This document shows, piece by piece, positions 2,096 to 49,604 of a stretch of DNA of 57,408 bases. The notes beneath the pieces are model-generated. The model ran no database searches, was not told the DNA's origin, and worked only from the letters and a program-made list of their open reading frames with translations. The DNA is from an uncultured Fidelibacterota bacterium (GTDB taxonomy: Bacteria > Fidelibacterota > Marinisomatia > Marinisomatales > TCS55): assembly GCA_902581045.1 (NCBI GenBank), contig CACHMU010000006.1, forward strand, positions 1-57,408, in the 5' to 3' direction. Positions within the stretch are counted from its first letter, which is position 1. Every line of letters starts with the position of its first letter. The position numbers were made by a program, and so were the translations under genes.

Positions 2096-2788
2096 TTATT
2101 TATTATATACCAGTGGATCTGAAAGACCGGCATCTAAAAATCCTTTTAGCCTGATTTGACAAGCATCACAAGCTCCACAAGGGTTACCTTTATCAACTGG
2201 ATCATAACATGAATGAGTGATTCCATAATTTACTCCAAGCGCCAATCCTGTTTTTATGATTTCAGCTTTTGTCAACTGAATTAATGGAGTATGAAGCCTG
2301 ATTTGATTATTTTTTTCTGTACCTGATTTTGTCGCGAGTTGGGCCATTTTTTCAAAAGACTCAATATATTCGGGCCTACAGTCTGGGTATCCACTATAAT
2401 CAAGCGCATTTACTCCGATAAAGATATCATTAGATTTGATTGTTTCCGCAAAAGCCAAACCAAATGAAAGAAAAATTGTATTTCGTGCTGGAACATATGT
2501 AATAGGAATTTCATCTGAAATTTGATTGGCATCGCGCTCCTTTGGAACTTCAATATCATCAGTAAGTGCAGACCCACCAAAAGCTCGAAGGTCAATCGTA
2601 AGATTTATGTGATTCTTTGCACCTATAGACTTTGCAACACTCTTTGCTGCCTCAATTTCAAATTTATGTCTTTGACCATAATTAAATGATAATGCATGAA
2701 GTTCATATCCATCTTGTTTTGCTATTGCTAGACATGTTGCGGAATCAAGACCGCCGGATAATAATATAACAGCTTTTTTCATAATCAT
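2096..2788 (-). CDS. queC: 7-cyano-7-deazaguanine synthase
   Basis: ATP-dependent conversion of 7-carboxy-7-deazaguanine to preQ0. The N-terminus has the PP-loop SGGLDS (residues 11-16) and the C-terminus the four zinc cysteines Cys194, Cys204, Cys207 and Cys210 (HSC...CGACDAC). Length 230 is normal. A second ATG two codons in (2782) may be the true start, as [11 protein letters not shown] is the usual beginning. First gene of the que operon; I see no preQ1 riboswitch in the short leader. No tgt or queG/queH is in the window, so use in tRNA is inferred from the pathway. Confidence 0.95.
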
Positions 2789-2889
2789 TAATAATTGGTA
2801 AAGAAATTACGTTATATTATTCTTTTGAAACGAAATTCAGAAACAACTATTTTCCATTAATAATAATGATTGGAAATCACAATTTTAAT

Positions 2890-3315
2890 ATGAAAAAATT
2901 AATTTTATTTTGTATACTATTTATTGGCTGCTCGGAGGATAATGCGGAAGAATTTGATAATAGTTTGCCAAAACTTGACTTGGATAAATTTCGAGTACTT
3001 GAATCTGGTGGTGGTTTTGGAATGCCAACGACCTATTCATTATCATTTTCTGGACACATAATTAATTTGACTGAAAATGTTTATAAGACTTATCGCCAAA
3101 AAATAGTTTTTACTGCAGAAAATGGAAATAAAGTAACTGGAGAAATGGGATTACCAATGTTTCGTTGGTTATGTCCCTTTGATACATTGTACGGGGGTGG
3201 TAAATCCGACGCTTTTGAAAGCGCAACGTTTCTCGATTCAATAGTTTCTTGGGAAACTATTAGTGATGGCTTAATTGTTAATTATGGTGAAGGTGATGAG
3301 TGCAGCAAGAATTAA
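2890..3315 (+). CDS. Small lipoprotein of unknown function
   Basis: Unrecognised protein of 141 residues. The ATG at 2890 gives a clean lipoprotein signal, MKKLILFCILFIGC, with the lipidation cysteine at residue 14 followed by Ser-Glu-Asp-Asn. The mature part is acidic near the start and otherwise mixed beta-like, with two more cysteines, in RWLCPFDTLYGGG and near the end. The frame also allows a start eight codons upstream (2866), but this would place polar residues before the signal. Convergent with the RidA-like gene, their stops overlapping by four bases. Function unknown. Confidence 0.7.
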   Translation: MKKLILFCILFIGCSEDNAEEFDNSLPKLDLDKFRVLESGGGFGMPTTYSLSFSGHIINLTENVYKTYRQKIVFTAENGNKVTGEMGLPMFRWLCPFDTLYGGGKSDAFESATFLDSIVSWETISDGLIVNYGEGDECSKN

Positions 3316-47714: not shown

Positions 47715-48260
47715 TTATTTTTTCATTTCGGGCTCTAAGTCAACACCTAAGCCATCTGCTATTCGATTGATATAATTGAAATACCCAATGACTTGAGCAG
47801 CATCGCTAATGGCCTCATGAGAAAACCCATATTTTTCTAAATTTTCCACATCCTCTTTTGTCATATCACTAGGAGACATTGTTAATTTTGTAGCCCATTG
47901 ACAAAGGGATTGGTCTGCCTCATCTAAATTTGCTAGTTGCCAATCATGTTTTAAATGCTCGGCCATTTTTTTATCTTTAACTTCATCCCGGAAGTCAGCT
48001 CCATGAGCTTCAGTTCAGTAATGACATTGATTAATTTTAGATACAACTGTTGCAATCATTTCACGTTGTGCACGTGATAGGTGTGATTTTCCATGCATAA
48101 TTGTTAAATACATTTTCATTGAATCTCGAAGCGCTTCAGGACTTCGACTCATTATTTTAAGTATATTATATATTTTCCCCGCACGTTGAATACCTTTTTT
48201 ATATTCGGCTTTTAATATACCATCAGCATTTTCAAGTTCAATTAAGTTGATATAAGCCAT
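47715..48260 (-). CDS. Predicted AhpD-like selenoprotein (peroxidase-related, CHYU active site)
   Basis: Two frames (48260-48015 and 47966-47715) are one 181-codon gene read through TGA at 48017-48015. The N-terminal half (MAYINLIELENADG... HLSRAQREMIATVVSKINQCHY) and the C-terminal half (TEAHGADFRDEVKDKKMAEH... VIGYFNYINRIADGLGVDLEP) join in frame as a carboxymuconolactone decarboxylase/AhpD-like 'peroxidase-related' protein of normal length. Relatives have CHYC followed by TxAHG; here UGA sits exactly at the second cysteine: Cys79-His-Tyr-Sec82-x3-His86. Nothing else is disrupted. Family role: thiol peroxidase or reductant relay. Insertion needs a SECIS element and selABCD, not seen in the window. 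A decayed gene is the alternative. It starts immediately after the permease stop. Confidence 0.85.
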
Positions 48261-49604
48261 TTATTCCTCCAATAAATGATAGTCTTTTTCCATTTGAGCA
48301 GCATAATTAAAGCCATCTTTTTTCCCTTGGTACCTTCCTAAAAAATAAAGAAGTGTACCTATAGTCAGCCCCCCAAGGGTAAAGAATAATGTATCCTGAA
48401 TTATATCTAAAATAAAAATGATCATTGTTATTACTGAAATACTTCCAATTATATATAAAGACCATATTGGTAATTTTACTGTTGCAGAATCATATAATCG
48501 GCGATTTGTATGTGGTAGTGCAATTAATGCAATACCTTGAAGTGTATAAATTCCAAAAATACCAATTAGCCCGGCGTTCATTAAGAATTGAGATGATTGA
48601 TACCAAATCAATATAACACAAATAAAGGCACTAAGAATTAAGCTGATATAAGGTGTTTTCCATTTCGGATGCACTTTTGCTAAAATTGACGGCATTAGTC
48701 TATCCTCACTAAATACAAAAAGGAGTCTAGATGGGACTAAAATTGTTGCATTAATACTTGTGAGAAAAGCACTCATTGCACCAATTGCTACAATGGCAGC
48801 TCCCCAATCAGGTAAATATTGTTGTGCCGCATCAGCCATTGCTGATTTTGAAATAGCTAATGTTTCTGCTGGTAAAACCCCAAAAGCGACAAAGGACATC
48901 ATAAAAAATATTAACACTGAAACTAACACACCTTTGACAAAAATTTCGGGCAATGTTTTAGTTGGATTTTTTGTTTCTCCTGCAACTTGAGCTAAAGACT
49001 CAAAACCTGCGTAACTAAAAAATAACATTGGCATAGCCGAAAGAAGACCTTTTATGCCTTTTGGTAATAAAGGGTTATAGTAAGAAAGGTCAATCGCAAA
49101 TAAACCTGGGATGACCAAAATAAATATGCTAATAATCAAAATAATTAACATCCCAATTTGAAGAAAACCATAATATCGAACACCTGCAATATTTATACAA
49201 AAAAAGAATATTAATACGGCTGTTGCTGAAATTCTGACATCCATATTTGGACTAAAAAAAGTTAAATATTCACCAAAGCTAGTTGCCATAAATGTTATTG
49301 CACCAACAAAGGCCATTAGTTTCATCCATACTGCAATAAACCCAATGTAGTAATTGTTGAATGTGCGGGATATGTGGATATAAGCACCTCCTGGGCGCAT
49401 TCCTAATGGAGTTGAGATAAATACACTATAGGCTAATGCCGTAGCTAAAATTATTGGGGTGAACAATAAATATGCGAAGGGAACGGCAGCTCCGGCGAGA
49501 GCGCCTGCTTCACCTGTCACTCTAAATATTCCTGCACCAACAAGCATCCCAATAATGGTGGCATAAGCAGAAAATTTTCCTAAATCCCGTTTTAGTAAAT
49601 CCAT
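48261..49604 (-). CDS. APC-superfamily amino acid permease
   Basis: 447 residues with about 12 membrane helices. The first helix IIGMLVGAGIFRVTGEAGALAG holds the GxGIF-type substrate motif of LeuT-fold APC carriers, and FFSYAGFESLAQVAGETKNP is the helix 6 signature with a following conserved Glu-Thr-Lys-Asn-Pro. Substrate is probably an amino acid or polyamine, not determinable. The stop directly abuts the start of the predicted selenoprotein gene, so these two form an operon. Confidence 0.9.
   Translation of the reverse strand: MDLLKRDLGKFSAYATIIGMLVGAGIFRVTGEAGALAGAAVPFAYLLFTPIILATALAYSVFISTPLGMRPGGAYIHISRTFNNYYIGFIAVWMKLMAFVGAITFMATSFGEYLTFFSPNMDVRISATAVLIFFFCINIAGVRYYGFLQIGMLIILIISIFILVIPGLFAIDLSYYNPLLPKGIKGLLSAMPMLFFSYAGFESLAQVAGETKNPTKTLPEIFVKGVLVSVLIFFMMSFVAFGVLPAETLAISKSAMADAAQQYLPDWGAAIVAIGAMSAFLTSINATILVPSRLLFVFSEDRLMPSILAKVHPKWKTPYISLILSAFICVILIWYQSSQFLMNAGLIGIFGIYTLQGIALIALPHTNRRLYDSATVKLPIWSLYIIGSISVITMIIFILDIIQDTLFFTLGGLTIGTLLYFLGRYQGKKDGFNYAAQMEKDYHLLEE

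Follow-up and report, generated by a model that had tools for sequence, protein, structure and literature searches.

An in-frame UGA predicted to encode selenocysteine in an AhpD-like gene next to an amino-acid permease in Marinimicrobia

An AhpD-like gene with a single in-frame UGA

In the whole stretch of 57,408 nucleotides analysed here (the window), a minus-strand frame begins with ATG at position 48260, runs for 81 codons to a TGA at 48017-48015, continues for 99 more codons and ends with TAA at 47717-47715 (Table 1). This TGA is the only one in frame within the gene. Under the standard translation table 11 the gene is cut at the UGA into two unrelated-looking fragments, and it was proposed in a first-pass annotation that the two frames form one full-length family member; the read-through product indeed matches the NCBIfam model TIGR01926 (peroxidase-related enzyme) across residues 3-177, and it also matches Pfam CMD. 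The residues around the codon read NQC79-H-Y-U82-T-E-A-H86, so that the UGA lies, as had been stated, exactly at the second Cys position of the redox motif. Of the 91 ways in which a single base change could create a stop within the gene, only 1 would strike the UGA codon, which agrees with the earlier argument that chance decay would rarely hit this very position. The same annotation called the replaced residue the resolving cysteine; its place as the second Cys stands, but a resolving role is not established, as both cysteines of AhpD belong to one proton-relay active site (Mycobacterium tuberculosis AhpD and PA0269; PMC3141380). On visual inspection, none of the other ORF pairs in the window that are separated by an in-frame TGA has a motif like this one, and the longest two pairs resemble ordinary adjacent genes.

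Table 1. Positions of the AhpD-like gene, its predicted recoding elements and the adjoining permease gene in the window
Feature	Position	Strand	Remarks
AhpD-like (TIGR01926 / COG2128) selenoprotein gene, predicted	47715..48260	-	181 aa with UGA read through; TIGR01926 145.8 bits against a cut-off of 81.8
In-frame UGA, predicted Sec82 of the active-site motif C79-x-x-U82-x3-H86	48015..48017	-	Codon shared with relatives in the order and in other phyla; remaining homologues have Cys
Predicted SECIS hairpin GACUUC-CGGGAU-GAAGUU	47979..47996	-	Synonymous constraint; compensatory changes
APC-superfamily amino-acid permease (AA_permease_2)	48261..49604	-	Stop codon abuts the AhpD-like start; conserved neighbour

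Conservation of the UGA among relatives

Homologues with an in-frame TGA occur in 26 of 101 genomes of the same order, and all of those that could be read carry it at the same codon. They fall into two paralogous groups, group 1 with 62-71% identity (18 readable full motifs, including that of the window's gene) and group 2 with mostly 41-47% identity (14 motifs). Homologues from the order without UGA have TGT or TGC in this column; the Cys that the first-pass annotation had expected at this position in homologues is thus present, and where it had considered additional inactivating mutations in close relatives we find instead intact genes with the same UGA.

The pattern extends beyond the order. 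A scan of GTDB genome contigs retained 80 loci, chosen as the best-scoring matches and hence no gauge of the proportion of Sec to Cys in the family as a whole; UGA is present at this position in 80/80 of these nearest named loci, 79 of them by motif, and in the last (L144), where the motif search was mis-registered, TAC-TGA is found in register as well. These loci belong to Marinimicrobia, Verrucomicrobia, Planctomycetota, Acidobacteriota, Actinomycetota (including Actinomarina), Chloroflexota and others. The invariant columns of the alignment include E67, C79, Y81, position 82 and H86.

The codon that precedes the UGA (48018-48020 in the window) is strongly biased toward TAC, in 17/18 group 1 genes, 14/14 group 2 genes and 59/80 loci across phyla. 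One UGA copy (L101, approximately 2715-3252 on the minus strand, genome G041:C20) has a frame that breaks just past the UGA region, which points either to decay of the copy or to a mistake in the assembly.

A conserved hairpin downstream of the UGA

The predicted SECIS element has a spacer of 18 nt from the UGA to the stem, 24 nt from the UGA to the apical loop, a stem of 6 bp, and a 6-nt loop (CGGGAU) whose second position is G. Its loop size, stem length, loop G and spacing all fall within the limits of the bSECIS model, as quoted in PMC13188914 (a loop of 3-9 nt that has a G among its first two positions, a stem of 4-16 bp, and a distance of 16-37 nt to the UGA). The earlier suggestion of a hairpin downstream of the UGA holds in this respect; the element is, however, the next hairpin downstream of AGCUC-AUG-GAGCU, one of the two that had been named. 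AGCUC-AUG-GAGCU can fold in the window, but it lacks conservation, as 42.7% of its cells are paired, no more than in shuffled controls, and it was rejected.

When the 93 testable synonymous columns of group 1 are ranked by bias (serine codon blocks being treated separately), the top five are V+12, Y-1, D+7, F+8 and R+9, four of which lie inside the hairpin while the fifth is the codon before the UGA. The codons that build the hairpin are used far more often there than elsewhere in the same genes: GTC in 14/18 against approximately 12%, TTC in 18/18 against 37%, and GAC in 16/18 against 28%. The stem is 99% paired within Marinimicrobia, with no double changes. Across phyla, with forms such as GACCUC-CGGGCU-GAGGUC and similar, 88.8% of cells are paired and double changes occur at 4 pairs (20 double-change cells); none of 500 shuffles reached this level of covariation, slid controls gave at most 54.5% pairing, and in a second, independent script 0/2000 arm shuffles were as paired as the real hairpin. 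At a fixed score, a bSECIS-like hairpin is found at the UGA in 80% of loci, compared to 26% elsewhere in the same genes.

The minimum free energy is -3.8 kcal/mol for the conserved hairpin alone, which is no better than shuffled (z -0.96), and -9.2 kcal/mol from the UGA to the hairpin end, a span that includes a non-conserved second hairpin; the SECIS criterion is at or below -7.5 kcal/mol. Support for the predicted SECIS is therefore drawn from conservation, the free energy alone being uninformative.

Selenocysteine machinery in the host and its order

The closest named relatives of the host are Candidatus Marinimicrobia / Neomarinimicrobiota genomes. Its assembly (G000; 943 kb in 48 contigs, 58.5% complete) contains adjoining selB (C10:9731-11551) and selA (C10:11590-12921) genes, which score 347 and 507 bits, respectively, above the cut-offs, and a selD gene (C5:50146-51072, minus strand, L105; 409 bits). 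A search for the sel genes had been proposed along with the initial reading, and it succeeded for selA, selB and selD in the host itself and for tRNA-Sec in a genome of the same genus (G002), where ARAGORN reports it with anticodon TCA. No tRNA-Sec was found in the host's own assembly at its 58.5% completeness; the weak matches there are tRNA-Leu and tRNA-Glu and were rejected. The host selD has an in-frame UGA of its own near the N-terminus, as it does in nearly all relatives searched.

In the order as a whole, 66 of 101 relatives have a tRNA-Sec above the Rfam cut-off. Among the genomes with a UGA homologue, 23/26 have selA above its cut-off, and the three that do not (G020, G034 and G076) all have tRNA-Sec, the selA of G034 being truncated. 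The association between selA and UGA homologues across all genomes is modest (Fisher P = 0.04) because Sec decoding occurs in most of the order. Neither selA above the cut-off nor a UGA homologue is found in the 14 genomes of one family (f15), which indicates an apparent loss of Sec decoding. The members of this family (G053, G063, G069 and 11 others) have small genomes of 0.7-1.0 Mb.

Predicted fold, proposed chemistry and the neighboring permease

The AlphaFold2 model of the AhpD-like protein is all-helical (pLDDT 94.5), and its best PDB matches are the AhpD-like structures 6k40, 3c1l, 2pfx, 2oyo and 2prr (TM 0.86-0.90), with more distant matches to the debrominase Bmp8, AhpD proteins and the AhpD-like domain of Sestrin-2. 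We propose that, when the ribosome reaches UGA82, the hairpin 18 nt downstream would recruit SelB with Sec-tRNA-Sec, and selenocysteine would be put in where the AhpD-type CxxC motif has its second Cys. In the modelled all-helical AhpD fold, the Sec82 selenolate would act together with Cys79, Glu67, Tyr81 and His86, giving a proposed selenolate-based AhpD-type redox centre. Cys79-Sec82 would most likely cycle as a Cys-Sec selenylsulfide in peroxide or thiol-disulfide chemistry, and we expect the enzyme to have peroxidase or thiol-disulfide activity of this kind.

The gene and the permease gene that abuts it are probably co-transcribed. A permease of the window type (65-76% identity) lies directly upstream in the window and in 11/18 other group 1 regions, and likewise in 4/4 named Marinimicrobia loci, which partly overlap the group 1 regions; a relative of it was not seen near the gene in the loci of other phyla. 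A different amino-acid permease lies directly downstream of the group 2 gene in 7/10 group 2 regions examined. The two UGA-containing paralogues are hence each found beside a different permease gene, on opposite sides (L093-L096, L100, L125 and L126; 48261-49604 in the window). This linkage to amino-acid permease genes may be new, and it offers a lead toward the substrate of the enzyme.

Alternative readings

We are highly confident that the locus is a selenoprotein gene of the known AhpD-like family, with UGA82 read as Sec by means of the downstream hairpin, and the in-frame UGA almost certainly codes for selenocysteine as far as comparative sequence data can tell. This had been the initial reading as well, and the sel genes, the Cys homologues, the SECIS-like hairpin and the intact relatives with UGA all favor it. 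The frame, the homology, the conservation of the UGA, the Cys homologues, the sel genes, the conservation and covariation of the SECIS and the predicted fold form its computed basis, from which we infer the actual insertion of Sec.

A true selenoprotein need not reduce peroxide. It could be a substrate-specific reductase, carrying out for instance a reductive dehalogenation as the AhpD-fold debrominase Bmp8 does, on a compound that the neighboring APC permease transports; each of two distinct Sec paralogues has a permease gene beside it, the Bmp8 structures 6ohi and 6ohj are among the fold neighbors (TMq 0.81), and C79, U82 and H86 are retained. However, identity to Bmp8 is just 18-19%, the nearest relatives of solved structure, at 29-34% identity, bear the titles of alkyl hydroperoxide reductase, antioxidant defence or peroxidase-related proteins, and outside the Marinimicrobia loci the gene was not seen beside a relative of the window permease, so that we consider this activity unlikely. 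A broader form of the idea, in which the Sec enzyme and the APC permease would constitute a dedicated Marinimicrobia module that arose twice, in two Sec paralogues whose gene orders are opposite, and whose enzyme would apply redox chemistry to one particular imported compound instead of serving as a general peroxidase, appears quite doubtful to us.

Far less credible is that the two frames are remnants of a pseudogene, created by a nonsense mutation or a sequencing error at the Cys codon. The standard table does yield two separate ORFs, and one point change from TGT or TGC to TGA would suffice, but the same UGA recurs in dozens of intact genes with 41-71% identity and also in several phyla, the hairpin downstream of it is constrained at the codon level, and selA, selB and selD are present; conservation across independent genomes refutes this explanation. 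A variant code, with UGA read as another amino acid (a recoded genome, or UGA as Cys or Trp), would also place an in-frame UGA in a conserved protein, but we reject it as wholly improbable, given that TGA is a normal terminator that ends 9/41 long non-overlapping ORFs in the window, that the position in the redox motif is the only place where the UGA occurs, and that a SECIS-like hairpin and selA, selB and selD accompany it.

Relation to known AhpD-like proteins

The locus has the sequence-level features of the AhpD-like selenoprotein family reported in 2005, and it is therefore a further member of a known family that involves no new principle. The precedent in marine metagenomes to which the first-pass annotation appealed is real: Sec-containing AhpD-like COG2128 proteins with CxxU were described in 2005 in the Sargasso Sea data, where 27 sequences were reported together with SECIS-like hairpins (PMC1088965), and 299 sequences were reported as "AhpD-like 1" from GOS in 2008 (PMC2398784). 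AhpD-like CxxU selenoproteins are also known from genomes (PMC1794560), and the family is listed in PMC9312934 and, under TIGR01926, in PMC13188914. The model is the same here, with CxxU, Sec at the second Cys, a hairpin past the UGA and a marine source; what is added is a Marinimicrobia genome, its sel genes, a cross-phylum SECIS and the permease neighbor, while the kind is unchanged. Because the closest relatives in several phyla combine UGA at the active site with a common SECIS at one fixed position, this pattern can serve as a motif with which to re-annotate the family and to link environmental AhpD-like selenoproteins with their hosts.

The NCBIfam family NF041238 (AhpD_rel_CFYUT, alkylhydroperoxidase-related (seleno)protein) shares the AhpD-type CxYUT with Sec at the second Cys; at 79 bits against a cut-off of 175, the protein is not a member. 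Compared to M. tuberculosis AhpD and P. aeruginosa PA0269 (PMC3141380), overall identity is low, and those enzymes have Cys instead of the predicted Sec; yet the proton relay of Glu/Cys/(His or Tyr)/Cys/His corresponds with identical spacing to E67, C79, Y81, U82 and H86. The Cys-form structures of the TIGR01926 type (6k40, the AhpD of D. radiodurans, with 3c1l, 2pfx, 2oyo and 2prr) are closer, with 29-34% identity (24% for 2prr) and the same active-site positions where aligned, and the aligned 6k40 and 2pfx have Cys at the position of the UGA-encoded Sec.
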